Shown here piece after piece: positions 30,772 to 46,996 of a stretch of 64,000 nucleotides of DNA (positions are counted from its first letter, which is position 1; each line of letters begins with the position of its first letter). Source of the stretch: Rhodocyclaceae bacterium (GTDB lineage: Bacteria > Pseudomonadota > Gammaproteobacteria > Burkholderiales > Rhodocyclaceae); assembly GCA_018261935.1 (NCBI GenBank), contig JAGTRP010000007.1, forward strand, positions 62,001 through 126,000, given 5' to 3'. The position numbers and the translations under genes were made by a program. The notes beneath the pieces are model-generated. The model saw only the letters and a list, made by a program, of their open reading frames with translations. It ran no database searches and had not been told where the DNA came from.

Positions 30772-32829
30772 GTGGGCCGGGACAGCACCGAACTGCCGCA
30801 AGCCCCCGTTTCCCGCTTCCCGCGCCTGGCCCGGGTGCTGGACCGCCTGGCGCCGGCCTCCAGCGGGGCGGCGGTGGCCCTGGGGAGCCTGGTGCTGCTT
30901 GGCTGGGCCCTCGATCTCACCATACTGAAGAGCGTCCTGCCCGGCCTCGCTGCCATGAAGGCGAACACGGCCCTGGCCTTCATCCTGGCCGGCCTCTCCC
31001 TGGGGGCTGCCTGCACCGGCTCGCCATCCCCCTGGCCCCGGCGCCTTTCGGCCGCCTGCGCGGCGGCGGTGCTGGCCCTCGGCCTGCTGACCCTCGGAGA
31101 ATATCTGACCGGCGTCGACCTCGGCATCGACAACCTGCTGGTACGGGAAATCACCGAACTTCCTGGCGACATTCCCGGCCGCATGGCCGTCGACACCGCC
31201 CTCTGCTTCTCCGTCCTCGGCGCGGCGCTCCTGCTGCTGAGCCGGGACCGGGGCCACCGGGCCGCCATCCATGCCCTGGCCATCGTCGCCATCCTGGTGG
31301 CCGGATCGGTGTTCATCGGCTATGCCTACGACGTCGATGAATTCCTGCGGGTGAAGCTCGACTACACGCCCATGGCGCTCAATACGGCGGCGGTGCTGGT
31401 GCTGCTGGCCGTCGGGATCGTCAATGCGCGCCCCGACTATCCCATCCGGCAGTTCCTCCTCACCGACAGCCCCGCCGGCACCATCGTGCGTCGGCTGGTT
31501 CCGCCGGCAATCGTCCTCCCCCTGGCGACAGGCTGGCTGATCCTGCTGGGCTATCGCACCGAGGCTCTCTCCGAGGCCTCCGGGCTGGCCGTGTTCGCCG
31601 CATCGGTCATCGTCCTCTCCATCGGCCTGGTCCTGTGGAATGCGGGGGACTTCCACGCAGCCGCCATCCGCGGCCGGCTGGCGGAAGAGGCATTGCGGGA
31701 GGATGAGGAACGGCTGAATGTCATCCTGAGAATCCTGCCGGTGGGGCTCTGGATTCTCGACGCCAAAGGGGGAGTCCTCTATAGCAACGATGCGGCACGG
31801 CGGCTCTGGACTGACGTCCGCTACGTCACCCTAGACGAACTCGATACCTACAAGGGCTGGCGGCTTCCCGGGAGGGAGCCCATCGCCGCCCATGAATGGT
31901 CGGGCGCGCGGGCCGTCGAGAAGGGCGAGACGACCATCGAACAGGAAGTCGAGATCGAATGCCTCGATGGCACCCACAAGATCATCTGGGACTCCGCCGT
32001 GCCGCTCCGCAGGAGCGATGGGAGCATCTATGGCGCGGTCACCGTCAACTTCGACATCACCAGACGCAAGCGGGCCGAGGCCGAAATCCGCCGGCTCAAC
32101 GCCGAACTGGAGCAGCGGGTGGCGGAACGCACCGCCGGCCTGGAAGCCGCCGTCAAGGAACTGGAATCCTTCGCCTACGCCATTTCCCACGACCTGCGGG
32201 CGCCCCTGCGGGCCGTCGACGGCTTCTCGGCCAAGGTGGCCGCAAACTATGGCGACCGGCTCGACGACGAGGGCCGGCGCCTGCTCCAGGTGGTGCGTGA
32301 AAACGCCCTGCGCATGGGCCGGCTGATCGACGACCTCCTGGCCTTTTCCCGCCTGGGACGCCGGGAAATGACCCTGCAGGCCGTGGATATGGAGGCCATG
32401 GCCAGGAACCTCGCCCAGGAACTGCGGGCGGCGGAGCCCGGGCGCGCCATCGAGTTCGCCTTCCCGCCCCTGCCGCCGGCCTGGGGGGACCCCGCCATGC
32501 TCCGGCAGGTTTGGGTGAACCTCATCGGCAATGCGGTGAAATTCACCTGCCGGCGGCCGGTCGCCCACATCGAGATCGGCGGGCGCAGCGAAGGCGCCGA
32601 GAACCATTACTGGGTCAAGGACGACGGCGCCGGCTTCGACATGCGCTATGCCGGCAAGCTGTTCCACGTCTTCGAACGCCTCCATGGCCCGGAGGAATTC
32701 GAGGGCACCGGCACCGGCCTGGCCATCGCCCAGCGCATCGTGCTCCGCCACCAGGGCCGCATCTGGGGAGAGGGCCGGCCCGATGCCGGGGCCACCTTCC
32801 ACTTCGCCCTGCCCGCCGCCCCCCATTGA
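30772..32829 (+). CDS. Membrane-bound PAS histidine kinase
   Basis: The 685-residue protein starts at a GTG. About eight hydrophobic segments fill residues 30-295, a MASE-like sensory region. A PAS domain (about 315-425), coiled coil, HisKA with S-H473-D-L-R-A-P-L and an HATPase with [16 protein letters not shown] and GTGTGLAIAQ follow. All catalytic boxes are present. The region from the H-box to the end is a near copy, in exact register, of the kinase at 33972. It lies 11 bp after the REC-HD-GYP gene, its likely output. Confidence 0.88.
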   Translation: MGRDSTELPQAPVSRFPRLARVLDRLAPASSGAAVALGSLVLLGWALDLTILKSVLPGLAAMKANTALAFILAGLSLGAACTGSPSPWPRRLSAACAAAVLALGLLTLGEYLTGVDLGIDNLLVREITELPGDIPGRMAVDTALCFSVLGAALLLLSRDRGHRAAIHALAIVAILVAGSVFIGYAYDVDEFLRVKLDYTPMALNTAAVLVLLAVGIVNARPDYPIRQFLLTDSPAGTIVRRLVPPAIVLPLATGWLILLGYRTEALSEASGLAVFAASVIVLSIGLVLWNAGDFHAAAIRGRLAEEALREDEERLNVILRILPVGLWILDAKGGVLYSNDAARRLWTDVRYVTLDELDTYKGWRLPGREPIAAHEWSGARAVEKGETTIEQEVEIECLDGTHKIIWDSAVPLRRSDGSIYGAVTVNFDITRRKRAEAEIRRLNAELEQRVAERTAGLEAAVKELESFAYAISHDLRAPLRAVDGFSAKVAANYGDRLDDEGRRLLQVVRENALRMGRLIDDLLAFSRLGRREMTLQAVDMEAMARNLAQELRAAEPGRAIEFAFPPLPPAWGDPAMLRQVWVNLIGNAVKFTCRRPVAHIEIGGRSEGAENHYWVKDDGAGFDMRYAGKLFHVFERLHGPEEFEGTGTGLAIAQRIVLRHQGRIWGEGRPDAGATFHFALPAAPH
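32155..32814 (+). repeat. Direct repeat, copy 1: kinase catalytic module
   Basis: This 660-bp stretch encodes the HisKA-HATPase part of the kinase at 30772. It aligns without any insertion or deletion to 34695-35354, exactly 2540 bp away. Long blocks are identical or nearly so in DNA, for example around GGCGACCGGCTCGACGACGA and the [18 protein letters not shown] coding segment. The sensory halves outside the repeat are unrelated. This indicates a duplicated module or recent gene conversion. Confidence 0.9.
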
Positions 32830-32941
32830 AAGCCGCCCCCCGCATACTGCCCGCCCTCCCCGTCACCGCCGAAGGAACGGGGGACCAGGGCCGGGAACTA
32901 ACAGCAAATGACATGCAGGGCACGGAAAGAGCGGCAACGCC

Positions 32942-33967
32942 ATGAAAACGACCGGAAGACGCACCTGGACCTGGATCGGGCTGCTGGCCGTGCTGCTCGC
33001 CCTGGGGGCGTTTTTCGCGGCGGGGCGCCTCCGCCCCGCCCCGGCCCCGCCCCCGGCTCCCCGGGAAAGCCTGACCCTGGGCACCCCCCAGACAATTTTC
33101 GGACTGCCCCTGGCGGTAGCCGAGGAGCAAGGGCTGTTCCGCGAAGAGGGGCTGGATGTCACCGTCAAGCGCTTTCCCACCGGCAAATCGACCCTGGAGG
33201 CGATGCTGCGCGGCGAGGTGGAGGTGGGGGCTGGGGGGGAGACCCCCATCGTCTTGGCCAGCTTCAAGCGCCGTGATTTCGTCATCATCGCCAGCATCAG
33301 CCACAGCGACAACGGCGGCCAACTGGTCGCCCATCCGTACAGCGGCATCCGTACCGCCGCCGACCTGCCCGGCCACCGCATCGGCGTCCTCTGGGGCACC
33401 ACCGCCCATTATTTCCTCGATGTGCTCCTCGCCGACCAGGGGCTGAAACCGTCCGCCGTCACCGAGGTCCCCCTGGAGGCCCCCCGGATGGCCGCAACCC
33501 TGGCGGCCCGGCAGGTGGATGCCATCGCCGCGTTCGAACCCTACGCCTCCCAGGCCATCGCCGCCCTCCGGGGCAGCGCCACCGTCCTGGACTGCCGGGA
33601 ACGCTGCCGCGAAACTGTGGTCCTGATCGTCTCCCGGGACTTCCCGCGCCGACGCCCCATCGCCGCCCAGCGCCTGCTGCGCGCCACCGGCCGGGCCATC
33701 GACTGGATCCACCAATATCCCCGGGAGGCCATGGCCCTCGCCGCCCGCCGGCTGAACATGGACATCGCGGTGTTCGATGGCCGGTGGAACGACTACGAAT
33801 TCGTCCTGGGCCTCGACCAGGCCTACCTGCTCTCCCTGGAAAACCAGGCCCGCTGGGCCCTCAGGACCTTTCCGGAGGCCGGGGCCGCGGTGCCCAACTA
33901 TCTCGATTTCTTCGACTTCGGGCCCCTCACGGCGGTGGCCCCCGGAGCCGTCGCCATCCCCCACTGA
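32942..33967 (+). CDS. Orphan NitT/TauT-type periplasmic binding protein
   Basis: The 341-residue protein has an uncleaved-looking or late-cleaved N-terminal hydrophobic segment (about 12-28) and a proline-rich linker. An NMT1/SsuA-like binding fold follows: [20 protein letters not shown]-x-E-E-G-L-D-V, [11 protein letters not shown] and [13 protein letters not shown]. Such proteins usually deliver small organic or inorganic nutrients to ABC importers, but no permease or ATPase gene is near. The kinase gene at 33972 begins four bases after its stop, so it is probably a ligand-sensing partner of that kinase. The ligand is not predictable. Confidence 0.82.
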
Positions 33968-33971
33968 AGCC

Positions 33972-35399
33972 ATGGATCTCCTCGCCCGCACCCGCCTGAT
34001 CGCAACCCTGGTCATCACCGCGACCCTGCTGCTGACGGGTGCCTTCCTGATGGCGCAGCAGCGCATGCGGGAGGCCCAGGCGGCCAAGGACGGCCTGGAG
34101 GCCCTGAGCGCCGAGGTCCACAGGCTGCGCACCGCCGCCTTCGACTATGTCCAGCAACCGGAAACACGGGCCCGGGCGCAGACGGAGGCCGAGTTCCAGC
34201 GTCTGCACGCCCTGGTCACCGGCGACTGGCTCGCCACCGTCGTCAGCCAGCAGGCCGCCGAAGAGGGGCGCCTGCGCCGGGAAGTCCGCGATGCCCTCGA
34301 CCAGAGCGAGGAAATCTTCCGCCAGCTCCCGGCCGGCGACAGCGATCCGGCCTTCGCCGAGCGGGACCGCCTCACCCGCACCCATCTGCTGCTGCAAACC
34401 CAGTCCCTGGCCAGCGCCATCGCCGCCCTGCATCCCATCCTGAGCGCCACGGCGGTGCGGGCCCGCAACCGTGCCGGAACCATCGGCGTCGCCCTGGGGG
34501 GCCTGCTGGTGGCCATGGCGCTGCTGTCCGTCGCCCTGCTCGAGCACTACATCCTCCGGCCCCTCGGCCAGTTGCGCCAGATGGCCATCGGCCACGGCGA
34601 GGCGGCGGCGCCGCTCCCCGGCCGGCGCACCGACGAGATCGGCCATCTGGCCGACGCCCTCGACGGCATACTGGCCCGGCTGGAGGCCGCCAACAAGGAG
34701 CTGGAGGCCTTCGCCTACTCGGTATCCCACGACCTGCGCGCCCCCCTGCGGGCCATCGACGGCTTCTCCCGCAAGGTGGTGGCCAATTACGGCGACCGGC
34801 TCGACGACGAAGGCCGGCGCCTGCTCCAGGTGGTGCGCGACAACGCCCAGCGCATGAACCAGCTCATCAACGACATCCTCGCCTTCTCCCGCACCGGGCG
34901 CCGGGAAATGGCTCCCGAGCCGGTGGATATGGAGGCCATGGCGAAAAGCGTCGCCGAGGAGGCGCGGCAGGCTGAGCCCGGGCGTGCCATCGAGTTCGCC
35001 TTCCTGCCCTTGCCGCCGACCAGGGGGGACCCCGCCCTGCTGCGGCAGGTGTGGGTCAATCTCATAGGCAATGCGGTGAAATTCACCCGACGGCGCCCGG
35101 TGGCCCACATCGAGGTCGGCGGCAGCACCGAAGGCGGCGAGAACCACTACTGGGTCAAGGACGACGGCGCCGGCTTCGACATGCGCTATGCCGGCAAGCT
35201 CTTCGGCGTCTTCCAGCGCCTGCACAGCCAGGAGGAATTCGAGGGCACCGGCGTCGGCCTGGCGATTGCCCAGCGCATCCTGTTTCGCCACCAGGGCCGC
35301 ATCTGGGCCGAGGGCCAGCCCGATGGGGGGGCCACCTTCCACTTCGCCCTGCCCATCCCATCTCCTAACGCCCCTCTTTCACGAGGACAGAAATCGTGA
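33972..35399 (+). CDS. Membrane histidine kinase paired with the orphan binding protein
   Basis: The 475-residue protein has TM1 near 8-27, a periplasmic helical domain of about 140 residues, TM2 near 175-197, a HAMP domain, HisKA with S-H253-D-L-R-A-P-L, and HATPase with [16 protein letters not shown] and [10 protein letters not shown]. The catalytic half is a near copy of that in the kinase at 30772. The start follows the binding-protein stop by four bases. Its own stop overlaps the next gene's GTG start (GTGA), placing binding protein, kinase and single-domain regulator in one translational chain. Confidence 0.92.
34695..35354 (+). repeat. Direct repeat, copy 2: kinase catalytic module
   Basis: This is the partner of 32155-32814, offset 2540 bp with no gaps, and encodes the HisKA-HATPase half of the kinase at 33972. 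Recombination between the two copies would delete the binding-protein gene and fuse the eight-span PAS sensor to the second kinase tail. Confidence 0.9.
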
Positions 35400-35839
35400 A
35401 CGTGACTAGCCGGGAATTACAGATTTTGCTGGTGGAAGACAATCCGGCCGACGCCGAGCTCACCCTGGACGCCCTGCGGGAAGTCCACTTGGCCGACCGG
35501 GTGCTATGGGTCAAGGATGGCGCCGAGGCCCTCGACCTGCTCTTTGCCCCAGGCGCCGCTGAAAGCCGGCGCCTGGGGCTGGTGCTCCTCGACCTGCGGC
35601 TGCCCCGGGTGGACGGCCTCGAAGTGCTGCGCGCCGTGCGCGCCGATGAGCATACCCGGCGGCTGCCGGTGGTGGTGCTGACTTCCTCCCACGAGGATAT
35701 CGACGTGGTGCGGGCCTACGACCTGGGGGCTAGCAGCTACCTGGTGAAGCCGGTGGAATTCGGGGCCTTCATGCAGGCGGTGCGCGACATCGGGCGCTAC
35801 TGGATGCAACTCAACCGCTTGCCGGGCGAAACGGGATGA
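35396..35839 (+). CDS. Single-domain response regulator (Rcp1-like)
   Basis: This 147-residue receiver-only protein has E14-D15, phospho-acceptor D66 in [14 protein letters not shown] near 97 and K-P in YLVKPVEF. Regulators of this type relay phosphate from HDLRxPL kinases of the phytochrome kind, which matches both neighbouring kinases. It starts with GTG overlapping the upstream kinase stop and ends in an ATGA overlap with the hybrid kinase, so the three genes are tightly coupled. It probably acts as a phosphate shuttle or by protein contact. Confidence 0.92.
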
Positions 35840-38481
35840 CCAGCCAGGACACGGAGCTGCCGCGCCGCCCCATCGACCTGGTGGTGGTCGAAGACTCGCC
35901 CCTTGATGCCGAACTGATGGTGGATGCCCTGCGGGCAGCCGGCATGGCGGTGGATATGCGGCAGATGGAGGATGAGCCTGCCTTCCGCGCCGCCCTCGGC
36001 GAGCGCCAGCCCGACGTCATCCTGTCCGACTGGACCATGCCCCGCTTCAGTGGCCGCCGGGCCCTGGAAATTGCCCGGGAATGCTGCCCCGAGGTGCCCT
36101 TCATTTTCGTTTCCGGCACCATTTCGGAGGCCTCCGCCTCCGAAGCGCTGCGCCAGGGAGCCATCGACTACGTCTATAAGCATGAACTGCAACGGCTCGG
36201 CCCCATCCTGACCCGCGTCCTCCACGAGGCCCTGACGCTGCGCCTCCTGCGAGAGAGCGAGGAAACGTACCGGCAGCTCTTCGACAGCGCCCGGGACGGC
36301 ATCGTGCTGATCGATATCCCCCCCGGCCTGATCTGCGACTGCAACCCCGCCTTCGAGCAACTGACCGGCCGGTCCCTGGCGGAACTCAAGACCATGCACA
36401 GCTGGGAATTGCGGCCGCCGGAGCTGCGGGAGGCAGCGCGGCGCCTGTTCGAGAAGATCGTGGCCACGGGCGAGGGCGAGTCGACCGATCTCGACCTGGA
36501 GAGGCCGGACGGCACCCGGGTGCCGGTGGACTTCCGGTCCCGCCGCATCCGCATCGCCGGCAGCGACTATGTCCAGAGCCGATATCTCGACATCACCGAA
36601 CGTAAGCGCAACAGCGAGGAACTGGAGCGCTACCGCCAGCACCTGGAGGAACTGGTGGATACCCGGACCCACGAACTGGCCCAGGCCAAGCAGGCGGCCG
36701 AGGGCGCCAATGCGGCCAAGAGCGCCTTCGTCGCCAACATGAGCCATGAGATCCGCACCCCCCTCAATGCCATCCTCGGGCTCACCCACCTGTTGCGGCG
36801 CGGCCATGCCGACCCCGCCCAGCGGGAGAAGCTGGACAAGATCGTCGACGCCTCCCGGCACCTGCTCTCGGTCATCAACGACATCCTCGATTTCTCCAAG
36901 ATCGAGGCTGGCAAGCTGAGCCTCCATGTGACCGACTTCGCCCTCGACCGCATGCTGGACAGCGTCATTTCCATGGTTGGCCCGAGGGCCAAGGAGAAAG
37001 GGCTTGAAGTCGTCGTGGACCGGGACGAGCTGCCGCCCGTGCTGGTGGGCGACTCCACCCGCCTCGCCCAGGCACTCCTCAACTACCTCTCCAACGCCCT
37101 CAAGTTCGCCCAGCAGGGCCGGATCACGGTGCGCATTTCCCGGCAGGAGGAAACCCCCATCGATCTGCTGGTGCGCTTCGAAGTGACCGACACCGGCATC
37201 GGCATCCCCCCCGGGAAGATGGCGGATCTGTTCGCGGCCTTCGAGCAGGTGGATGCCAGCACCGCGCGCCACTACGGCGGCACCGGCCTGGGGCTCGCCA
37301 TCACCCGGCGGCTGGCCCAGCTCATGAAGGGCGAGGCGGGCGCCACGAGCATGCCCGGCCAGGGGAGCACCTTCTGGTTTACCGCCCGCCTCGGCAAGAG
37401 CTGGCTCAGCCTGGAAGCCCTGGCCGAAGCGCCCGCCCTCGCCGAATCGAGCCTGCAGGCCGTGCCGGCCGGCGCCCGCATCCTGCTGGCCGAGGACAAC
37501 CGGATCAACCAGGAAGTGGCGGTGGAACTCCTGGCCGAGGCCGGGCTGACGGTGGAGGTGGCCAGCGACGGCCATGAGGCGGTGGAGAAGGCCCTGGGCG
37601 GCGGCTACGACCTCATCCTCATGGATATCCAGATGCCCGGCATGGACGGCCTCGATGCGACCCGGGCCATCCGCGCCCTGCCCGGCGGCGGCGCCATCCC
37701 CATCCTGGCGATGACCGCCAACGCCTTCGACGAGGACCGGGAACGCTGCCGGGCGGCGGGCATGAACGACTTCATCGCCAAGCCGGTGGATCCGGTGCAG
37801 CTTTTCGCCACCCTGCGGCGCTGGCTGCCGGAAGCGGCCATGACCGCCCCGGCGGGGGGCGGCGGGGAGGCGCAGATTCCCGACGCCCTGGCGGCCATCC
37901 CCGGCCTGGACGCCCGGCGGGGCATCCAGGCGCTGAACGGCAACCTGGATGCCTACCTGCCCCTGCTGCACCGCTACGGGGCCGAGCACGCCGGAGACAT
38001 GGACCGGCTGCGGGCGCAGATGGCCGCCGGGGAGCGGGACGAGGCCAGGCGGCTGGCCCATGGGCTGAAGGGGGTCTCGGGCAACCTGGGCGCCACCGGC
38101 GTGGAGCGCCTGGCCGCCGAGCTGGAGATGGCGATCGGGGAAGGCCGCGACGACGCCGAGATCGAACGGCTGGCCGACGCCGCCGGCGCCGAGCTGCAAC
38201 AGCTGGCGGAGGCCATCCTGGCGGCCCTGCCGGCACAGGCCCCGGCCCCCCTGGCCGGCGAAGTGGACTGGGCGGCGGCGGGGCGGGTCCTGGCCGACCT
38301 GGAACCCATGCTGCAAAGGGGCAGCACCCGGGCCAACCTCATCGTGGAGAGCCATGCCGCGCTGCTGAAGGCCGCCCTCGGCCCCCTGGGCGAGGAACTG
38401 GAACAGCGGGTCGGCCGTTTCCTCTACCCCGAGGCCCTGGAAACCCTCCAGCGGGCACGGCGGGAAATCCCGGCGCCGTAG
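35836..38481 (+). CDS. Hybrid sensor kinase REC-PAS-HisKA-HATPase-REC-HPt
   Basis: The 881-residue soluble protein has six modules in order: receiver (D65 in LSDWTMP), PAS (about 140-260), HisKA with M-S-H304-E-I-R-T-P-L-N, HATPase with DTGIGIP and [10 protein letters not shown], a second receiver (D597 in LMDIQMPG), and a C-terminal HPt with acceptor H742 in LAHGLKG. It holds a complete phosphorelay in one chain. Phosphate could leave from the HPt to another regulator, while the N-terminal receiver offers an input from the upstream kinases. It overlaps the regulator gene by four bases and ends nine bases from the convergent amidohydrolase gene. Confidence 0.94.
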
Positions 38482-38490
38482 GCGGCGGAA

Positions 38491-39201
38491 TCAACCTGCT
38501 CCGCAGGCCTGCACCAGGGCGGCCACCACCGCCCGCCGCAGCTCCCGCCAGGACGCCCCGCCGGCCAGGCAGTGCTTCTGGTTGATTTCCAGTTCGATGC
38601 CGACATAGTCGCCGGGCCCGAAGCGCCGCCGCAGCCAGGAGCAGAAACCGTCGGACTTGCCGGTATAGGGATAGTTGCGGCGCACCCGGAACCGGGGCGC
38701 CAGGGTTTCCAGGGCTGCCTGCCAGGCATCGCACAGGGCCCGCTCCCCCGGGCGGCCGGGATGGTAGAGAAGGCCGATGTCGGCATTGCGGACCTCGCCG
38801 TCCAGGACCGGGGTGAAGCTGTGGCTGGAGATGTGCACCACCCGCCGCCCGCCGGCGATGGCCCCGGCCACCAGCTGGCCGGCCCGCTCCCGGTAGGGCC
38901 GGTAGTAGCGGGCGACCGCCTCTTCCCGCACTTCCCGGGGGGCAGCGCGCCAGGCCTCGGACAGCAGCCGGGGATGGCGCGGGGAACGGTTGAGTTCCAC
39001 CACCAGGCGGCTGACGGTGGAGTAGACGAGGGGCGCCGCCAGGGCCCGGGCCAGGTCCCGGGCCTGGGCCAGGGCTCCGGGATCGTGGCCCCGGTGGCTG
39101 GCCAAAGCCTCCTCCCAGCCCTGAAACCAGTTCCGGTAGCGCGCCGGCACCCGATTGCCGGCGTGCTCGCAGGTCACCAGGAAGAAGGGTTCCGGCGGCA
39201 C
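38491..39201 (-). CDS. N-formylglutamate amidohydrolase-like enzyme
   Basis: The 236-residue protein has the family's opening T-C-E-H-A-G-N-x-V-P, H-R-G-H-D-P-G, L-V-V-E-L-N-R-S, H-I-S-S-H-S-F-T-P and N-x-P-Y-x-G-x-S-D. Characterised members cleave N-formylglutamate in histidine degradation, but no hut gene is near. I chose a GTG start at 39201, four bases after the upstream ligase stop, because the conserved block then begins at residue 8; longer in-frame starts lie inside the ligase gene. It is the last gene of the amidoligase operon, where it may deprotect or trim a glutamyl product. Confidence 0.82.
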   Translation of the reverse strand: MPPEPFFLVTCEHAGNRVPARYRNWFQGWEEALASHRGHDPGALAQARDLARALAAPLVYSTVSRLVVELNRSPRHPRLLSEAWRAAPREVREEAVARYYRPYRERAGQLVAGAIAGGRRVVHISSHSFTPVLDGEVRNADIGLLYHPGRPGERALCDAWQAALETLAPRFRVRRNYPYTGKSDGFCSWLRRRFGPGDYVGIELEINQKHCLAGGASWRELRRAVVAALVQACGAG

Positions 39202-39205
39202 AGGG

Positions 39206-40513
39206 TCAGGACAGATACATCCTGCCTTCCTGGAGGCACCGGGCAAGTTCGCCGTAGACCGCCTGGAGCCGCCGCCGGGACGGGTTGGGGCCGACCGCGT
39301 CCACCAGGCGCCGGGCCAGGGGGCCCTGCTCCAGGATGAAGCGCAGGGGCTTGATCCAGGCCTGGGAAAGCTCGCCGTGGGCCACCATGTCGTTGAGGAG
39401 CCAGGCCCAGATTTCCCGCGCCTGCCAGCTTCGCCTTTCAAGGCCCAGGACGGCGATGTAGTCCAGGTCGTCCACCACCGCCTGCTCGGCGTCCCGGATG
39501 CAGGCCAGGAGGATGTCCGCCAGGGCCCGGGTTTCCATCTTGCCCTGCCGGTCCAGCCAGGCCGCCCCGGCGCTGTAGAAGCGCCGGACGAGGGCGGTGA
39601 CGGCGGCGACGATGGCGCAATCGGCCAGGGGGCATTCCTGGGTATCGAGGAGGCGGATCTCGAGGGCGCTGCGCTCGAAGCGGGGAATGAGGCCGCGGGC
39701 GTTGAGCCATTCGTGCTGCAGCAGGCCTTCCGGATCGTGGGGGGCGATCTGCCGATACATGGGCAGCAGGACTTGGGCCCGGTAATCGGCCGGTGAGGCG
39801 ATGCTGTCCGGGATCACCACGCCCATGGTGGCGGGCACCCGCATCTGGTGGCTGCGGTAGACCTCCAGGCGGTAGTCCATGAAACCGGTGAAGCGGCCCT
39901 CGGCGAAGGGGGAACTGGCGGCCAGGGCCGGCAGGAGGGGCAGCACCAGGCGGGCGGCGGCGTGCAGCCGGGCGAATTCCAGGTCGTTGCCGAAGGGCAG
40001 GTTGAGATGGATGCTCTGGATATTGACCCAGCCATGGCGGCGGCAGTCGAAGATGCGGTCGTAGGCCGCGTAGAGCTCGGCCTGCTGCCGGGACCACAGC
40101 CGCGCCTCCTTCGCCGGGTCCATCCAGGGATGCATGCCCCCCGGCATGAGCCGGGCCGAGACCGGGGCGAGGAGGGCGTTGGCGGCCCGCACTTCGGCCT
40201 GGAGGTTGGCGGCCAGGCCCTCCAGGCCGGCCTGGGGGACCCGGTTCTTGATCTCGAAGACGTGCAGGGCCAGTTCGTTGGACCAGCCCATGGGGCCGCG
40301 GGGCACATCGCTCGCATCCTCGCCCGCCGCCGCCCGCAGGAGTTCGTCGGCCAGGGGGCGCACATCCAGGCTGTCCCGGTCCACGATCATGTATTCGGAT
40401 TCGATGCCGTAGCCGGCGAAAACCGGATAGACGTTGGGTGCCGGCGGGGCGACGGAGGGGACCTCCGGGGACAGGGGAGGATCCGACAGGGGGGTTTCCC
40501 GATAAAGATTCAT
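39206..40513 (-). CDS. GCS2-family glutamate-cysteine-ligase-like amidoligase
   Basis: The 435-residue protein belongs to the GCS2/carboxylate-amine ligase group: G-I-E-S-E-Y-M-I-V near 36-44, S-N-E-L-A-L-H-V-F-E-I-K-N, N-I-Q-S-I-H-L-N-L-P-F, and R-x-S-A-L-E-I-R-L-L-D-T-Q-E. These residues form the glutamine-synthetase-like ATP/Mg site that activates a glutamate side chain and joins it to an amine. It is unlikely to be the housekeeping GshA given its operon. Its start overlaps the ATP-grasp ligase stop (ATGA), and the amidohydrolase gene follows at four bases. Acceptor amine is unknown. Confidence 0.86.
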   Translation of the reverse strand: MNLYRETPLSDPPLSPEVPSVAPPAPNVYPVFAGYGIESEYMIVDRDSLDVRPLADELLRAAAGEDASDVPRGPMGWSNELALHVFEIKNRVPQAGLEGLAANLQAEVRAANALLAPVSARLMPGGMHPWMDPAKEARLWSRQQAELYAAYDRIFDCRRHGWVNIQSIHLNLPFGNDLEFARLHAAARLVLPLLPALAASSPFAEGRFTGFMDYRLEVYRSHQMRVPATMGVVIPDSIASPADYRAQVLLPMYRQIAPHDPEGLLQHEWLNARGLIPRFERSALEIRLLDTQECPLADCAIVAAVTALVRRFYSAGAAWLDRQGKMETRALADILLACIRDAEQAVVDDLDYIAVLGLERRSWQAREIWAWLLNDMVAHGELSQAWIKPLRFILEQGPLARRLVDAVGPNPSRRRLQAVYGELARCLQEGRMYLS

Positions 40514-41979
40514 GGTGAACTACTCCCGGGCTGGCGCTCTTCCAGGCGGCGCAGGAACACGCCCATGACCTCCCGGTAAAGGGCATCCTTGAGGACGCCG
40601 TCTTCGTTGCCGGCGTCCACATTGGGGTTGTCGTTGACTTCGATGACGCAGTAGCGCTGGCCCACCTGCTTGATATCCACGCCGTAGAAGCCGTTGCCGA
40701 TATGGCTGGCCGCCTGCAGGGCGATGTCCACTACCTCTTCCGGAGCCTCGCTTACGGCCAGGGCCTCGGTGGCGCCTTCGGCCGGGGCGCCGTCCACCTG
40801 GTGATTGACGATCTGCCAGTGGCCGGCGGCCATGTAGTACTTGCAGACGAAAATGACCCGCCCGTCGAGGACGCCGACCCGCCAGTCGAAGGTGGTGGGC
40901 AGCCATTCCTGGGCGACGATGAGGTCGGACTTGCCCAGCAACTCGGCCACCTTGTTCTGCAGTTCGGCCTCGGTCTCCACCTTGGCCACTCCCACCGAGA
41001 AGGAGCTGTCGGGCTGCTTGAGGACGCAGGGCAGGGAAAGTACCGACAGGATCTGGCCGACATTGCCCCGGTGGACCATGAGGGTGCGGGGCGACGGCAG
41101 GTTGTGACGGGCCAGCATCTCGGCCAGGTACACCTTGTTGTTGCACTTCAGGATGGAGTCCGGGTCGTCGATGACCTCCAGGCCCTCGGCGGCGGCCCAG
41201 CGGGAGAAGCGGTAGGTGTAGTGGTGGACGAAGGTGGTGTCGCGGATGAAGAGGGCGTCGAATTCCGCCAGCCGATAGAAGTCGGCCGGGGTGATGAAGG
41301 TGGGCTGCATCCCCACCGCCTCCGCCGCCCGGGCGAATTTGTGCAAGGCCTCCGGGTTGGAAGGCCGGTCCGGCGCCTCCGGGTTGTGGAGGATGGCGAT
41401 GCGGTAGGGGGTGACGGTGCTTTTCGGCCGGCTGCGGCCGCTGAAATGGCTCATCGCCGCCTCCCGGGCGAACTCCCGGTGCTCCGGCGGAATTTCCCCG
41501 GCGCCGATGAGGCGGATGGCGCGGGCCCGCCAGTGGCCCTCCTCCCGTTCGAAATGGGCCTGCAGGAGGGGGGCCTGGAGGAGCTTGAAGAGCTGCTTGG
41601 CGAGCACGCTGTAGCGCTGGGCCAGGTTGCGCCCGAAGTAGACCGACAGGTCGAAACGGCTGGATTTGAGGGGAGCCAGGGTCTGCTGCACCAGTTCGGC
41701 CAGCTCGTCGGTGAGGACGCGGACCAGGTTCTGGGACTGCAGGTCCTCGATGGTGCCGGCATGGGGCATGGGCTTGTGCCCCCGGGCCTCGGCCAGGAGG
41801 GAGACGTAATAGCCGATGCTTTGGTAACGGTAGGACTGGCACAGGTTCACCACCCGGGCCGACCGATCTTCCCCGTAGGCGAGATCGGTCAGGTAGCTGC
41901 GGCCGGGAACCACTGCCACCCCGCTGGCATCCAGGGGCCAGTCGGCAGGGTCGTCGACCACGATCAAGGTGTTGCTCAT
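40510..41979 (-). CDS. RimK-like ATP-grasp ligase with N-terminal RLAN domain
   Basis: The 489-residue protein has an N-terminal RLAN-type domain (about 1-160; SYLTDLAYGE, LCQSYRYQSIGYYVSLLAEARGH region). A linker and a RimK-like ATP-grasp domain (about 210-470) follow, with FIRDTT, NNKVYLAEML, V-L-K-Q-P-D-S-S-F-S and the metal-binding E-V-N-D-N-P-N near the end. ATP-grasp ligases form amide bonds through acyl-phosphates; RimK itself adds glutamates. RLAN fusions are known from comparative genomics only. It is coupled by four-base overlaps to the C39-like peptidase before it and the GCS2 ligase after it. Confidence 0.88.
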   Translation of the reverse strand: MSNTLIVVDDPADWPLDASGVAVVPGRSYLTDLAYGEDRSARVVNLCQSYRYQSIGYYVSLLAEARGHKPMPHAGTIEDLQSQNLVRVLTDELAELVQQTLAPLKSSRFDLSVYFGRNLAQRYSVLAKQLFKLLQAPLLQAHFEREEGHWRARAIRLIGAGEIPPEHREFAREAAMSHFSGRSRPKSTVTPYRIAILHNPEAPDRPSNPEALHKFARAAEAVGMQPTFITPADFYRLAEFDALFIRDTTFVHHYTYRFSRWAAAEGLEVIDDPDSILKCNNKVYLAEMLARHNLPSPRTLMVHRGNVGQILSVLSLPCVLKQPDSSFSVGVAKVETEAELQNKVAELLGKSDLIVAQEWLPTTFDWRVGVLDGRVIFVCKYYMAAGHWQIVNHQVDGAPAEGATEALAVSEAPEEVVDIALQAASHIGNGFYGVDIKQVGQRYCVIEVNDNPNVDAGNEDGVLKDALYREVMGVFLRRLEERQPGSSSP

Positions 41980-42710
41980 GGCACTGGCGCAGGGCCTTTT
42001 TTCTTCTTGGGGGAAATGACGAGCAGGTTGGCATCGTGGGTGACGATGCCCAGGAGGACCGCGTTGAGCACCCGGTCCATCTTGATCCAGTAGTCCCGGG
42101 CGGTGCCGTAGGGATGGGGACCGTAGGGATCGGCCACCAGGACGGTACGTTGCTTGCGGTTGTAGCCGGCGATGACCACGAAGTGCCCGGACGGGGTGCC
42201 CCGGACGTCGTCGGGCTTGTCGAGGATGCCGTATTCCCGGGGGGCCCGGTAGAGGAAGGTGGACGAGAGGCCGGTGAGGATGGGCAGCTTCCGGCGCAGG
42301 AGGCCCCGCACCAGGGGCAGCGACAGGTCGTGGAAGCGCAGCTTGCCGCCCAGGCGCAGGAATTCCAGGTAGCCCTCGGTGGCGTGGATGAGGCGGGGGT
42401 CGTCCTTGGCTTCCAGCTGGGCCATCAGGCGTTCGGCGATGTCCCGCTTCTCGCGGAACCAGGTGGGATCGAAGACCGTCAGGTTGTAGGTGTAGATGAC
42501 GGCCTGGAAGCCGCGGCTGAGGGCATCGCAGGCGAGGAAGACGGCAAAGGTGCCGCCGTGCTCAAGGGCGCGGGTGCGGCCGATCACTTCTTCCAATTTC
42601 TCCTCGCTGCCCCAGTATCGATAGACGGCATGTAGACACGTGGGCCCACAGGTCGTTTCCGTCGGTTGGGGCATGATCCGCACGGGCAGATGAAGGGAAA
42701 CGGGGAGCAT
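41976..42710 (-). CDS. C39-like cysteine peptidase, first gene of the amidoligase operon
   Basis: The 244-residue protein has the C39_2/papain-like catalytic pattern: Q-P-T-E-T-T-C-G-P-T-C-L near 15-26 (nucleophile Cys), S-G-H-F-V-V-I-A-G-Y (His) and V-A-D-P-Y-G (Asp). No signal peptide or transporter domain is present, so it acts in the cytoplasm. The ATG at 42710 is preferred; a TTG at 42746 would lengthen it by 12 residues, and an ATG at 42674 would leave only two residues before the conserved block. In this operon it could cleave a precursor, or reverse the reaction as an amide-forming transferase. It diverges from the CBS gene. Confidence 0.82.
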   Translation of the reverse strand: MLPVSLHLPVRIMPQPTETTCGPTCLHAVYRYWGSEEKLEEVIGRTRALEHGGTFAVFLACDALSRGFQAVIYTYNLTVFDPTWFREKRDIAERLMAQLEAKDDPRLIHATEGYLEFLRLGGKLRFHDLSLPLVRGLLRRKLPILTGLSSTFLYRAPREYGILDKPDDVRGTPSGHFVVIAGYNRKQRTVLVADPYGPHPYGTARDYWIKMDRVLNAVLLGIVTHDANLLVISPKKKKGPAPVP

Positions 42711-42838: not shown

Positions 42839-43300
42839 ATGCAAGTTCGTGAAGCAATGACCCGCGACGTGCGCATCGCGAATCCCGACCAGAGCATCCA
42901 CGACGTGGCCCGCATCATGGCCGAGTGCGACGTGGGCGCCCTGCCCGTGGGAGAAAGGGACCGGCTGGTCGGCATCATCACCGACCGGGACATCGCCGTC
43001 CGGGCGGTGGCCGAGGGGAAGTCCCCGGACGCCACCAAGGTGCGGGACGTCATGAGCCGGTCGGTGAAATACTGTTTCGAGGACGAGGACGTTTCCCAGG
43101 TAGCCCAGAACATGGGCAGCATCCAGGTCCACCGGCTGCCGGTCCTCAACCACGACAAGCGCCTGGTGGGGATCGTGGCCCTGGCCGACATCGCCAATTG
43201 CGAGGGGGCCGACACGGCCGGCCAGGCGGTGTGCGGTATCGCCAGCACCGGCAGCGCCGCCGAGCACATGTCGTCTTCCGGCGGCAGCCAGCAGCATTGA
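42839..43300 (+). CDS. Tandem CBS-domain protein
   Basis: The 153-residue protein is a single Bateman pair. CBS1 spans about 6-58 (V-R-E-A-M-T-R-D-V to V-G-I-I-T-D-R-D-I-A) and CBS2 about 72-124 (V-R-D-V-M-S-R to V-G-I-V-A-L-A-D-I-A). The tail is Gly/Ser-rich. Stand-alone CBS pairs bind adenine nucleotides and regulate partner proteins; the partner here is unknown. ACAGGAGCC precedes the ATG at 42839, which fixes the start over a longer frame from 42746. It is transcribed away from the amidoligase operon. Confidence 0.92.
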   Translation: MQVREAMTRDVRIANPDQSIHDVARIMAECDVGALPVGERDRLVGIITDRDIAVRAVAEGKSPDATKVRDVMSRSVKYCFEDEDVSQVAQNMGSIQVHRLPVLNHDKRLVGIVALADIANCEGADTAGQAVCGIASTGSAAEHMSSSGGSQQH

Positions 43301-43325
43301 CGCCCCTGCACCGGGCAGGCCGCCG

Positions 43326-43949
43326 TCAGGGGGATTCCCGGTCTTCCGGCCCCCCGGCGGGGGCCGGAAGGAAGGGCCGGGCCAGGCGCAGGTCCGCCAC
43401 GAAGGACTGGTAGACCAGGCTATGGGCCTGGGGCGGCACCCGCAGGATGTAGGAGGGGTGGACAGTCACCAGCCAGGCCGGGCCGGCCTGGCGCTCGATG
43501 ATGCGGCCCCGCAGCCCGGTGATGGTCGCCTCCCGGTCGATCAGGGCGTGGACCGCGGTCGCCCCCAGGCAGACCACCAGGTCGGGCCGGATGGCCGCCA
43601 GTTCCCCTTCGATCCAGCGGCGGCAGGCGGCGATTTCCTGCTGGAGCGGGGTTTTGTGCATGCGCCGCTTGCCCCGGGGTTCCCACTTGAAGTGCTTGAC
43701 CGCATTGGTGACGTAGATGGCGGCGCGGTCGATGCCCGCCTCGGCGAGCGCCCGGTCGAGCACCTGGCCGGCAGGCCCCACGAAGGGGTGGCCGGCCCGG
43801 TCCTCGGCATCGCCGGGCTGTTCGCCCACCAGGACGATGCGGGCCTGGGGATCGCCCTCGCCGAAGACGGTCTGGGTGGCATGGATCCACAGGGGGCAGG
43901 CTTTGCAGCTTTGGGCTTCGCGCCGCAGTTCGGCGAGGTCGGGGGGCAC
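43326..43949 (-). CDS. udgX: UdgX-type uracil-DNA glycosylase
   Basis: The 207-residue protein is an iron-sulfur uracil-DNA glycosylase, with cysteines 15 and 18 plus two later ones to hold a [4Fe-4S] cluster. Its motif A is G-E-Q-P-G-D-A-E-D (42-50) and its second motif V-H-P-S-Y-I-L-R. The segment K-R-R-M-H98-K-T-P matches the R-loop unique to UdgX, whose histidine forms a permanent covalent bond with the abasic sugar after uracil removal. If that holds, this enzyme suicidally crosslinks to uracil-containing DNA. It stands alone between convergent CBS and the small DUF3309 gene. Confidence 0.88.
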   Translation of the reverse strand: MPPDLAELRREAQSCKACPLWIHATQTVFGEGDPQARIVLVGEQPGDAEDRAGHPFVGPAGQVLDRALAEAGIDRAAIYVTNAVKHFKWEPRGKRRMHKTPLQQEIAACRRWIEGELAAIRPDLVVCLGATAVHALIDREATITGLRGRIIERQAGPAWLVTVHPSYILRVPPQAHSLVYQSFVADLRLARPFLPAPAGGPEDRESP

Positions 43950-43974
43950 GGGTCACCTGCCTTGGGCTCCCGGG

Positions 43975-44133
43975 CTAGAAGGCGCCGAGGAGCCACAGCA
44001 CGAGGAAGGCGACGAGGATGATGCCCAGGACGCTGCTTGGCGCGTATCCCCAGCCGGAACTGTAGGGCCAGCTGGGCAGCGCGCCGAGGAGGAGCAGCAC
44101 CAGCACAATCAGGAGGATGGTGGTGAGCGTCAT
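43975..44133 (-). CDS. DUF3309 small membrane protein
   Basis: The 52-residue protein has two hydrophobic helices joined by P-S-W-P-Y-S-S-G-W-G-Y-A-P-S, the DUF3309 hallmark. AAAGGAG sits seven bases before the ATG at 44133, so the longer reading frame is rejected. Function is unknown; homologues are small inner-membrane proteins often near stress genes. About 110 bp upstream on its strand lies GTAAGAATTGCCC, similar to a motif before the gene at 18170. Confidence 0.85.
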   Translation of the reverse strand: MTLTTILLIVLVLLLLGALPSWPYSSGWGYAPSSVLGIILVAFLVLWLLGAF

Positions 44134-44411
44134 GACAGCACTCCTTTCCAGGCGAGCGGCAGGGCCGCGACAAGCCCACAGGGCAGCTTTCATGCCTAGA
44201 AGCCGAAAAGCGGGCAAGGGGATGGAAAGGCCGCGGCGGCCAGGGCAATTCTTACAAGCCGGTCCCCATTTTTTCACGCCGGCGGCCCTTGCCGTCGGGG
44301 TCAATCCGGCATTCGGCCGGGAAAGATCCCTATTTTCCTGGGTACGGGGATTGCCTAGGTGTGGATACGGCGGATCGCCTATGTCCGTCAGCGAATGATT
44401 GGAGGTGTCAC

Positions 44412-44573
44412 ATGTTGTATTACGCCGGAGTATTTTTCGTCATCGCGCTGATCGCAGCGCTCTTCGGCTTTGGCGGCATCGCGGCCGGCGCCGTGGGGAT
44501 CGCCAAGGTCCTGTTCTATGTCTTCCTGGTAATCGCCCTGGTATCCCTGATTGCCGGGGTCATCAGAAGATAG
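44412..44573 (+). CDS. DUF1328 small membrane protein (YtjA family)
   Basis: This 53-residue, two-helix membrane protein begins [20 protein letters not shown] and has the [11 protein letters not shown] turn. GGAGGTG is positioned six bases before the ATG, and the CsbD gene begins ten bases after its stop. It is a paralogue of the protein at 6642. Its function is unknown, but it heads a stress-type operon continuing through CsbD and two BON proteins. Confidence 0.9.
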
Positions 44574-44583
44574 GAGAACGGCC

Positions 44584-44781
44584 ATGAATTGGGATCGCAT
44601 CAAGGGCGACTGGAAGCAGTTCAAGGGTCAGATCAAGCAGAAGTGGGGCAAGCTCACCGACGACCACATCGACCAGATCGAAGGCCAGCGCGACCAGCTC
44701 GTCGGCAAGATCCAGCAGCAATACGGCGTCAGCCGGGACGAGGCCGAGCGCCAGGTTCGGGAATGGGAATCCCGGAGTTGA
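44584..44781 (+). CDS. CsbD family stress protein
   Basis: The 65-residue, charged helical protein opens MNWDRIKGDWKQFKG and contains W-G-K-L-T-D-D-H-I and I-E-G-Q-R-D-Q-L-V-G-K-I-Q, the CsbD signature. CsbD proteins are general-stress proteins in Bacillus and abundant osmotic/stationary-phase proteins in many proteobacteria; the molecular role is unclear. AGGAGAACGGCC precedes the ATG. It sits between DUF1328 and BON genes, almost certainly one transcript. Confidence 0.94.
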   Translation: MNWDRIKGDWKQFKGQIKQKWGKLTDDHIDQIEGQRDQLVGKIQQQYGVSRDEAERQVREWESRS

Positions 44782-44797
44782 TCGGCAAAGGAAATCC

Positions 44798-45148
44798 ATG
44801 AGGTCGCACCTGTCAGCCTCGGCACTGGCCCTGGCCTGCCTGGCGGGCCTGTCTGCCTGCCACCGCCCGGCGACGCAGCCGGCGTCGGTTGCGCTGCAAA
44901 TGAGCGCCGTCCATGGGGCAACGGCCACCGAAAAGGATGCTCTCATCACCACCCTGGTGAAGGAGGCGCTGCTCGCCGCCGAGGATATCAACGGCGACGA
45001 CATCTCGGTGACCACCCGACAAGGCCAGGTCACCCTGACCGGCCGCGTGCCCGCCCGGCAGATCGCCCTGGCCGGGGAACTGGTCCAGGGCATCGATGGC
45101 GTCCGCCGGGTCGACAACCGCCTGAAGCCCATCGGCGTCATGGCTTGA
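44798..45148 (+). CDS. BON-domain lipoprotein
   Basis: The 116-residue protein has a signal peptide ending in a lipobox-like L-S-A-C (cysteine 21) and one BON domain (about 45-112; D-I-S-V-T-T-R-Q-G-Q-V-T-L-T-G-R-V). BON domains bind phospholipid and are found in envelope-protective proteins such as OsmY. It should be an envelope lipoprotein. It lies 16 bp after csbD and 51 bp before a second BON lipoprotein. Confidence 0.86.
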   Translation: MRSHLSASALALACLAGLSACHRPATQPASVALQMSAVHGATATEKDALITTLVKEALLAAEDINGDDISVTTRQGQVTLTGRVPARQIALAGELVQGIDGVRRVDNRLKPIGVMA

Positions 45149-45199
45149 ACCCCGAAGGACGAGAAGGAACGAAGGATTGAACAATCTGGAGGATGAACC

Positions 45200-45523
45200 A
45201 TGATCAACACCAAACCCCTATTGATCGCCGCCCTGGTGGCAGCCACCTTGCCGGCCCTGACCGCCTGCAGCCCGACGCCGACCCGCGAGACCGTAGGCGA
45301 GTACACCGATGACGCCACCATCACCACCCGGGTCAAGACTGCCCTGGTGGAGGACCCCAACGTGAGTGCCATGCAGGTCAACGTGGAAACCTACCGGGGG
45401 GTCGTGCAGTTGAGCGGCTTCGTAGACTCGCAGGCCAATGCGGCCCGGGCGGTGAATCTGGCCCGCCAGGTTCCCGGCGTGCAGTCCGTGAAGAACGACC
45501 TGCGGATCAAGCCGGCCCAGTAA
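45200..45523 (+). CDS. BON-domain lipoprotein (OsmY-like)
   Basis: This 107-residue protein has a signal peptide ending in L-T-A-C (cysteine 23) and one BON domain (about 36-105; D-D-A-T-I-T-T-R-V-K-T-A-L, G-V-V-Q-L-S-G-F-V-D). It is a close relative in layout of the preceding protein, perhaps an old tandem duplication. GGAGG lies eight bases before the ATG. The phospholipase D gene begins 12 bp after its stop. Confidence 0.9.
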   Translation: MINTKPLLIAALVAATLPALTACSPTPTRETVGEYTDDATITTRVKTALVEDPNVSAMQVNVETYRGVVQLSGFVDSQANAARAVNLARQVPGVQSVKNDLRIKPAQ

Positions 45524-45535
45524 GGAAAACCCGAC

Positions 45536-46996
45536 GTGAGACGGCCGTGGTGCAGTTCCACACACGGCTCAATCCACTTTGAGGGATGGCGCCTGGCCCC
45601 TGGGCCACGGCGCCATTTTCTTGCCGCTGCCGCCGCCCTCGCCGCCGCCCTGCTGGCGGGCTGCGTGGCGCCGGCGGCGGTGCCCGTGGCCCGGCCGGCC
45701 GGGGCCCGGGGACCGGCAGCCGTACGGGTCATCGACGAAAAGGGGCCCCTGGAAGGGCAGCAGGCGGCGGGGGCAGTACGGCACCTGGAGAGCAAGGGCG
45801 ACACCTCCCTGCTGGCCCATCATCTGGCCCACGTCGAGCACGCCATCCAGGCGCCCCTGACCCTGGGCAACGACGCCCGGCTCCTGATCGACGGCCCCCA
45901 GGCCCTCGGCGCCATGATGGAGGCCATGGCCCGGGCCCGCGACAGCATCAACCTCGAAACCTACATCCTGGAAGCCGACGAAAGCGGCCAGCGCCTGGCC
46001 GATCTCCTGATCCAGAAAAGGGCCGAGGGGGTGAAGGTCAATGTCCTCTACGACAGCGTCGGCGCCATCACCACGCCGCCGGAGTATTTCCGGCGCCTGG
46101 CCGACGCCGGCGTCGCGGCGTGCGAGTTCAACCCGGTCAATCCCCTCAAGGCCAACGGCAACGGCGGCTGGCGCATCAACAACCGGGACCACCGCAAGCT
46201 GCTGATCGTGGACGGCCGTACCGCCTTCACCGGCGGCGTCAATATCAGCGCTGTCTACGAGAGTAGTTCTTTCAGCCGCCGGCACCGGAAGCCGACCCCC
46301 AAGGAGGGCTGGCGGGATACCCACGTGGAGGTCAGGGGGCCGGTGGTGGCGGAATTCCAGCGGCTTTTCCTCACAACCTGGGAAGAGCAGCGCTGTACTC
46401 CCAAACTGGCCGCCGACAGCTACTTTCCCCCGCCGGAACGCCAGGGGGACAGGGCCATGCGCCTCCTGGCCGCCGACCCGGGCAACGGCCGCACCGAGTT
46501 CTACGTCGTCCTGCTGTCGGCCATCAACCACTCCGAAAGCCGGGCCTGGCTGACCTATGGCTATTTCGTGCCGGACCAGCCCATGCTCCAGGCCCTCAAG
46601 GGCGCCGCCCGGCGGGGGGTGGATGTGCGCCTGGTGCTGCCGGGCTTCAGCGACTTCTGGGCGCCTTTCAATGCCGGGCGTTCCCGCTACCGCACCCTCC
46701 TGGCCGACGGAGTGCGCATCTTCGAGCGCCGGGACGCCCTCCTCCATGCCAAGACGGCGGTCATCGACGGGGTCTGGTCGAGCATCGGGTCCACCAATCT
46801 GGACTGGCGCAGTTTCGTCCACAACTACGAGGCCGACCTGCTCATCCTCGACCCCGCCTTCGCCCGGGAAATGGAGGCCCTGTTCCGCCAGGACGAGTCC
46901 GCTTCCCACGAGATCGGGCTCGCCGAATGGCGCCATCGGGGACTGGCTCCGCGCCTGAAGGAGTGGGCCGCCCGCTGGTGGGAATACCTGCTGTGA
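45536..46996 (+). CDS. clsC: Phospholipase D family cardiolipin synthase, ClsC-like
   Basis: The 486-residue protein has an N-terminal export segment (about 28-44, ending A-G-C) and two HKD motifs: D-H-R-K-L-L-I-V-D-G and L-H-A-K-T-A-V-I-D-G, each followed by the G-G/G-S-x-N step. It matches the ClsC type that makes cardiolipin from phosphatidylglycerol and phosphatidylethanolamine. The start appears to be GTG at 45536 with AAGGAA upstream; the 30-residue leader before the hydrophobic part is long, so a later start is possible. Its place behind CsbD/BON genes links it to envelope stress. Confidence 0.86.
   Translation: MRRPWCSSTHGSIHFEGWRLAPGPRRHFLAAAAALAAALLAGCVAPAAVPVARPAGARGPAAVRVIDEKGPLEGQQAAGAVRHLESKGDTSLLAHHLAHVEHAIQAPLTLGNDARLLIDGPQALGAMMEAMARARDSINLETYILEADESGQRLADLLIQKRAEGVKVNVLYDSVGAITTPPEYFRRLADAGVAACEFNPVNPLKANGNGGWRINNRDHRKLLIVDGRTAFTGGVNISAVYESSSFSRRHRKPTPKEGWRDTHVEVRGPVVAEFQRLFLTTWEEQRCTPKLAADSYFPPPERQGDRAMRLLAADPGNGRTEFYVVLLSAINHSESRAWLTYGYFVPDQPMLQALKGAARRGVDVRLVLPGFSDFWAPFNAGRSRYRTLLADGVRIFERRDALLHAKTAVIDGVWSSIGSTNLDWRSFVHNYEADLLILDPAFAREMEALFRQDESASHEIGLAEWRHRGLAPRLKEWAARWWEYLL

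Follow-up and report, generated by a model that had tools for sequence, protein, structure and literature searches.

Iyer et al. reportedly described in 2009 an RLAN domain fused to a RimK-like ATP-grasp ligase and encoded beside genes for a GCS2 ligase and a C39-like peptidase. Here we examine an operon that agrees with this description, with an RLAN-RimK fusion and adjacent GCS2 and C39 genes, at positions 38491 to 42710 of a 64,000-nucleotide stretch of a Rhodocyclaceae bacterium genome (contig JAGTRP010000007.1, positions 62,001 to 126,000; the whole stretch is called the window). It is a further example of a kind of association that had already been predicted, and no product of RLAN/GCS2/C39 operons was found in the literature searched, a body of work outside which most subscription journals fall. 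More generally, ATP-grasp ligases are reported to share operons with COOH-NH2 ligases or GNATs (PMC4431377). The pathway to the osmolyte NAGGN is an asnO-ngg-peptidase operon and shares with the window operon the logic of bringing N-capping, peptide ligation and a peptidase together in one operon (PMC8070244). The window operon differs in that its four genes contain no asnO-like or asparagine-synthase-like match and in that a GCS2 ligase takes the place of acetylation.

We propose, with a probability of about 0.5, that the operon may direct the cytoplasmic biosynthesis of a short N-capped peptide of the form cap-X-Y. To the earlier prediction we add counts of the breadth and order of the association, fusions of RLAN to GCS2, an alternation between GNAT and GCS2 partners, and the exclusion of the GCS2 enzyme as sole GshA, some of which Iyer et al. 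2009 may already contain.

Organization of the operon

The four genes lie head to tail on the minus strand. The first (41976-42710) encodes a C39-like, papain-fold cysteine enzyme of 244 amino acids (aa) that matches Pfam Peptidase_C39_2 (E=1.5e-11) and has no attached ABC transporter. The second (40510-41979) encodes an RLAN domain fused to a RimK/LysX/ArgX-like ATP-grasp ligase (489 aa; Pfam RLAN, E=3.8e-49, and RimK, E=1.4e-9), the third (39206-40513) a GCS2-family carboxylate-amine ligase (435 aa; Pfam GCS2, E=1.8e-31), and the fourth (38491-39201) an N-formylglutamate-amidohydrolase-like hydrolase, or FGase (236 aa; Pfam FGase, E=5.4e-25). The Pfam matches of all four proteins exceed the curated cut-offs, and none of the NCBIfam models attains its cut-off against them. 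Four-base ATGA overlaps join the C39 gene to the RLAN gene (41976-41979) and the RLAN gene to the GCS2 gene (40510-40513), and four bases (39202-39205) lie between the GCS2 stop at 39206 and the FGase GTG start at 39201. Coordinates and Pfam matches thus agree with the layout given in a preliminary description of this DNA, made from the letters alone. With these overlaps and the four-base gap, the operon is too compact to hold a precursor gene between its members.

Profile searches of the source genome returned one match each for RLAN, GCS2 and FGase. With the start used, 128 bases separate the C39 gene from a divergent CBS gene, and a promoter and terminator scan at the operon found nothing exceeding shuffled sequences. 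No PADLOC family matched any of the four proteins at E 0.01, and an anti-phage defence system was dropped as a candidate on that result. A plasmid search returned 18 records, seven of them from Azospirillum, with a best identity of 45%.

Conservation of the gene order

A scan of genome contigs with an alignment of the GCS2 protein gave at least 562 confirmed relatives from 583 stretches. The best 80 of these were analysed, so that the rates below apply to window-like loci and not to all GCS2 relatives. The order C39-RLAN-GCS2-FGase is complete in 60 of the 80 loci; 11 have the first three genes but no FGase next to them, one (L131) is truncated on the FGase side, and eight are in other states, contig ends included. 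RLAN is adjacent to GCS2 in 78 loci, C39 to RLAN in 73 and FGase to GCS2 in 64. An order that is whole in 60 of 80 loci, with RLAN beside GCS2 in 78, is not a matter of chance. With starts chosen by our own rule, four-base overlaps occur at 38 of 73 measured C39-RLAN junctions, 50 of 77 RLAN-GCS2 junctions and 17 of 64 GCS2-FGase junctions. By record labels, the loci that conserve the order belong to Pseudomonadota, Planctomycetota, Myxococcota, Thermodesulfobacteriota, Gemmatimonadota, Balneolota, Hydrogenedentota and Krumholzibacteriota, and the co-occurrence of the four families in fixed order, which the preliminary description had proposed to look for in other genomes, is therefore real among these best loci and spans several phyla. 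Carriers labelled to species include Aromatoleum tolulyticum, Azoarcus indigens, Thiobacillus thioparus and Noviherbaspirillum autotrophicum. Across 65 loci, the distances of the four proteins are correlated with one another (Spearman 0.70-0.85, calculated without an outside control gene). Two records are probably mislabelled metagenome-assembled genomes: in the tree, the RLAN of L082 (titled Rhizobium) groups with Thiobacillus, and that of L143 (titled Klebsiella pneumoniae) groups with another genome of the window's class.

Departures from the order take several forms. Of the 79 loci that extend far enough to tell, 15 have no FGase beside GCS2, although in L112 it lies 2.5 kb further on; the RLAN gene is elsewhere in the genome in L077; 1.2 kb separates RLAN from GCS2 in L127; and a heparinase-like gene stands between C39 and RLAN in L150. 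Among the 50 of the 80 carrier genomes in which RLAN copies were counted, 48 have one match and two have two. The second RLAN copy of L157 is solo, and that of L158 (5296-7495) is a C39-RLAN pair without GCS2, closely related to the window genes, in a genome that also has the full operon; neither L157 nor L158 has a GNAT-C39 match. No fifth gene or precursor recurs near the operon among rough gene calls of at least 60 aa, in which clusters of neighbours reach at most 15 of 88 loci and the largest one consists of kinases.

The RLAN ligase

Residues K282, K321, R367, D435, E447 and N449 of the RLAN ligase are invariant in 57 aligned sequences and include what we take to be the metal-site and phosphate-site residues of an ATP-grasp enzyme. 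A family motif, Y381...H387-W388-Q389, is invariant in the same alignment and, like those residues, is common to the GCS2 and GNAT types described below (ten rows are of GNAT type and one of unexamined type). The folds closest to the predicted model (predicted local distance difference test score, pLDDT, 90.3) are LysX (3vpd, Z 26.9), ArgX (3vpb, Z 26.8) and RimK (7qys, Z 25.6), in a search that bears mainly on the ATP-grasp part and barely on the RLAN domain itself. LysX/ArgX with the carrier protein LysW (3vpd, 3vpb, 5k2m) is the best structural match, at Z 26.6-26.9; unlike in that system, the LysX model reaches only 62.5 bits against a cut-off of 275.6 and no carrier-like gene recurs among the neighbour clusters. 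RimK, the ribosomal protein S6 glutamate ligase (4iwx, 5zct, 7qyr), has the same ATP-grasp fold; the RLAN ligase differs from it by its extra RLAN domain, a score of 28.7 bits against an NCBIfam cut-off of 331, and its other partner genes.

The graspetide ligase PsnB (7drp) was matched as well. Some graspetide-like clusters are built from an ATP-grasp ligase and a C39 peptidase, and the operon might mature a ribosomal peptide whose double-glycine leader the C39 enzyme would cut. We consider this very improbable, given that the intergenic gaps are too short for a precursor and that a search of the surroundings, which covered genes of at least 60 aa, found neither a small gene nor a transporter recurring from phylum to phylum.

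The residues of RimK used for comparison, as given in PMC10092738, are the glutamate-contacting R64, R189 and N262 and the active-site loop R211, H215 and R216. The first three align with window R246, R367 and N449, all of them invariant (the R189 equivalence was computed, those of R64 and N262 read off the alignment). RimK S68 is not kept, its place being taken by F250 in the window, and S7, R8 and S14 are unaligned. The loop residues R211, H215 and R216 have no counterpart in the RLAN ligase, in one profile alignment that is gapped in this region, and glutamate as donor is therefore not implied. To judge from these residues, the RLAN ligase should have a RimK-like site for a carboxylate and yet not be a poly-Glu synthase. 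Deletion of F. tularensis FTT0178, a 490-residue "RimK", caused no attenuation in mice (PMC2675058); by its length this protein may be an RLAN ligase rather than RimK.

RimK with RpsF (5zk6) is also among the closest folds and, like ArgX/LysX with LysW, acts on a protein acceptor. The operon could thus modify a protein: the C39 enzyme would expose a protein terminus, the RLAN ligase add one or more amino acids as RimK does on S6, GCS2 or GNAT cap the result, and FGase, or the DUF2817 protein described below, reverse it. Two removal enzymes would suit a reversible mark, and so would a C39 enzyme whose nearest folds are double-glycine peptidases, tied with phytochelatin synthase. We nevertheless rate protein modification as rather unlikely, as no candidate target gene recurs nearby across phyla among the rough gene calls of at least 60 aa, the RimK loop is not conserved, and the use of GNAT and GCS2 as alternatives suits a small amine at least equally well.

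The C39-like enzyme and the FGase

Residues Q15, C21, H176 and D194 of the C39-like enzyme are invariant in 40 aligned sequences, the window included; we take them to be an oxyanion Gln and a Cys-His-Asp active site. The AlphaFold2 model (pLDDT 92.9) has two nearest folds that tie, the double-glycine peptidase 6mpz (Z 16.3) and phytochelatin synthase 2bu3 (Z 15.5), so that hydrolysis and transpeptidation are both possible. Matches of the sequence profile are ComA/PCAT-type chains, one C39-like peptidase (3erv) and an improbable hit to Vps8; phytochelatin synthase is not among them. The papain fold and the active-site Gln, Cys, His and Asp are shared with the phytochelatin synthase Alr0975 and with C39 double-glycine peptidases. 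Unlike the C39 peptidases that process bacteriocins, which are fused to an ABC transporter, the 244-aa protein of the window has Pfam C39 matches only.

Residues E12, H13, H123, H127, E203 and E205 of the FGase are invariant in 35 aligned sequences, and E12, H13, H127 and E205 are presumably metal-site residues. The protein scores 89.3 bits against the Pfam PF05013 cut-off of 28.9, and the best solved relative of its profile is 2odf (Atu2144; E=1.9e-39). With its family match and conserved residues it resembles the N-formylglutamate amidohydrolases (PF05013; 2odf, 2q7s), whereas its setting differs from that of histidine breakdown in having no histidine-degradation gene among the neighbours scanned.

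GCS2 and glutathione

In the GCS2 protein, E38, E40, N79, E80, H128, R188, R215, R273, E285, R287 and E293 are invariant in 48 aligned sequences, and the putative catalytic residues are thus invariant in the alignments of all four proteins. Among NCBIfam models, its best score is against a carboxylate-amine ligase (64.2 bits, cut-off 371); the best glutamate-cysteine-ligase model gives 42.7 bits (cut-off 409) and EgtA 19 (cut-off 370.8). The source genome has a separate gshA (PF08886, E=2.5e-199) on another contig, and a gshB match (PF02955) lies within 1 kb of it. This pair rules out the GCS2 enzyme as the cell's only GshA. The preliminary description had named three results that would speak against its proposal, namely a lack of co-occurrence, missing catalytic residues and a sole GshA in the glutathione pathway, and none of them turned up.

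A glutathione-linked thiol pathway is a further alternative, in which GCS2 and the ATP-grasp ligase would copy GshA and GshB and the C39 enzyme would process glutathione or gamma-glutamyl dipeptides in the manner of phytochelatin synthase. The C39 model is about as near to phytochelatin synthase with a glutathione acyl-enzyme (2bu3) as to C39 peptidases, and the ATP-grasp part of the RLAN model matches glutathione synthetase 1gsa (Z 21.2). We hold this alternative to be improbable in view of the genome's own gshA and gshB, the low glutamate-cysteine-ligase score, and the carrier genomes: a GSH-S_N (glutathione synthetase) match is absent in 18 of 50, which may be incomplete, and marginal in two more, which makes glutathione unlikely as a general substrate. 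By record titles, four of these 18 are Pseudomonadota; the other 14 belong to other phyla or are unlabelled.

Two types of RLAN locus

Of 274 genomes sampled from the window's class, 63 have RLAN, with one match each. Among the 40 of these neighbourhoods that were fetched, six hold the full operon, one holds RLAN and GCS2 only, and 33 have neither GCS2 nor FGase. A direct search found a GNAT within 1.3 kb of RLAN in all 33 (the strand differs in five), and in 31 of them the C39-like part is fused to the GNAT; the one GNAT-type protein scanned in Pfam has GNAT and DUF3335, "Peptidase_C39 like". An amine-acylating partner is therefore present beside RLAN in 40 of 40 fetched loci (GCS2 in 7, GNAT in 33), which points to a constant RLAN ligase whose amine-acylating partner is either GCS2 or GNAT. 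No genome among those examined was seen carrying both types. A DUF2817 gene lies beside RLAN in three of the 33 GNAT-type loci by clustering (L031, L051 and L069) and is a possible counterpart of FGase; the L031 protein was checked in Pfam and also has a sub-threshold AstE/AspA deacylase match.

In a tree of RLAN, one branch with 100% SH-aLRT support splits the two types (33 versus 84 rows), and with planctomycetes added, GNAT-partnered rows appear elsewhere too. Repeated exchange of GNAT and GCS2 was considered and set aside: the ATP-grasp-only tree has three changes, but a single clade is not rejected (approximately unbiased test, AU p 0.714), the constrained tree being the better one.

A sample of 294 genomes from the phylum to which a planctomycete carrier belongs contains 74 with RLAN matches, weak and partial ones included. 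Twenty planctomycete stretches were fetched; about half were picked for odd frame lengths or weak matches, so that they give no rates. Eleven of them have both RLAN and GCS2, and in five of these (L195-L199) RLAN-ATP-grasp and GCS2 share a single open frame of about 1000 residues, a 1022-aa protein in L195. Such fusions place both ligases in one pathway. No C39 match was found in L195, where only 1.2 kb lies upstream of the fused gene, L196 or L213, and the C39 enzyme is accordingly not always needed. In L200-L203, on a long branch of the tree, RLAN and ATP-grasp look like separate genes, as seen in L202; L201-L203 have a GNAT match and no C39 match, and L200 showed neither.

Genomic neighbourhood

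Beyond the divergent intergenic region, 42839-46996 holds stress-type genes: a CBS pair, DUF1328, CsbD, a PLD-family protein, two proteins with BON domains and, on the minus strand, a uracil-DNA glycosylase. Proteins related to the CsbD, DUF1328 or BON proteins of the window occur at 4 of 36 loci labelled Betaproteobacteria and at none of the 44 others (some of which are unlabelled betaproteobacteria), and at none of 34 control stretches or 33 GNAT-type loci. For 4 of 36 against 0 of 34 the one-sided p is 0.064, with a panel chosen from the window itself. This context is seldom found at other loci, so that it gives a weak hint of a stress role. On the other side, a run of genes for signal transduction occupies 30772-38481. 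It encodes two histidine kinases, a receiver protein and a hybrid kinase of 881 aa that includes an Hpt domain; the gene of this last protein faces the FGase gene and ends nine bases from its stop.

Discussion

The capped-peptide proposal follows from the common denominator of the two types, a constant ligase with an amine-acylating enzyme. By analogy with LysX, ArgX and RimK, the RLAN ATP-grasp enzyme would activate a carboxylate as an acyl phosphate and couple it to an amino acid through the amine of the latter. GCS2 would attach another carboxylate, possibly a gamma-glutamyl one, to a free amine, and in the GNAT type the GNAT would perform the same capping step with an acyl-CoA. FGase would then remove or recycle the cap, and the C39 protein may trim or transfer the peptide through a cysteine acyl-enzyme. 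The product would probably be intracellular, perhaps a stress solute. We extend the proposal only tentatively, and at less than even odds, to a widespread class of cytoplasmic N-capped peptides, with a constant RLAN core ligase and a cap that varies with lineage: a glutamyl-type cap added by GCS2 and cleaved by FGase, or an acyl cap added by a GNAT that carries the C39-like domain as a fusion.

Parts of the preliminary description fare differently here. Proofreading or deprotection by the cleaving enzymes is plausible, and a glutamate-containing product is a suggestion from the family names. A fixed set of two ligases and two cleaving enzymes is not supported as put there: some loci have no FGase beside GCS2, others have no C39 match, and the GNAT type has neither GCS2 nor FGase.

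Several points weigh against a capped peptide. The substrate and product sides of the model are read from genes alone, and the acceptor could equally be a protein. The absence of equivalents of RimK R211/H215/R216 means that the donor need not be glutamate. FGase is dispensable and C39 is missing in some loci, so that neither is needed everywhere, and RLAN is found without a nearby GCS2 or GNAT in L157 (solo), L158 (C39 only), L160 (GCS2 elsewhere in the genome) and L200. The operon is also unevenly distributed: this GCS2 type has strong matches in only 2 of the 25 genomes searched from its family (the source genome included) and in 1 of 16 other genomes of the order, where one further match is weak (E 9.1e-4). 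More than one exchange between GNAT and GCS2 is not shown by the trees, and the stress context is no more than a hint.

The alternation of GCS2 and GNAT makes a prediction, namely that the partner enzyme puts an acyl group on an amine of whatever molecule the RLAN ligase handles. With RLAN matches in 63 of 274 genomes of the window's class and, weak and partial ones included, in 74 of 294 of the planctomycete phylum, the textbooks may lack a common bacterial metabolite or modification.

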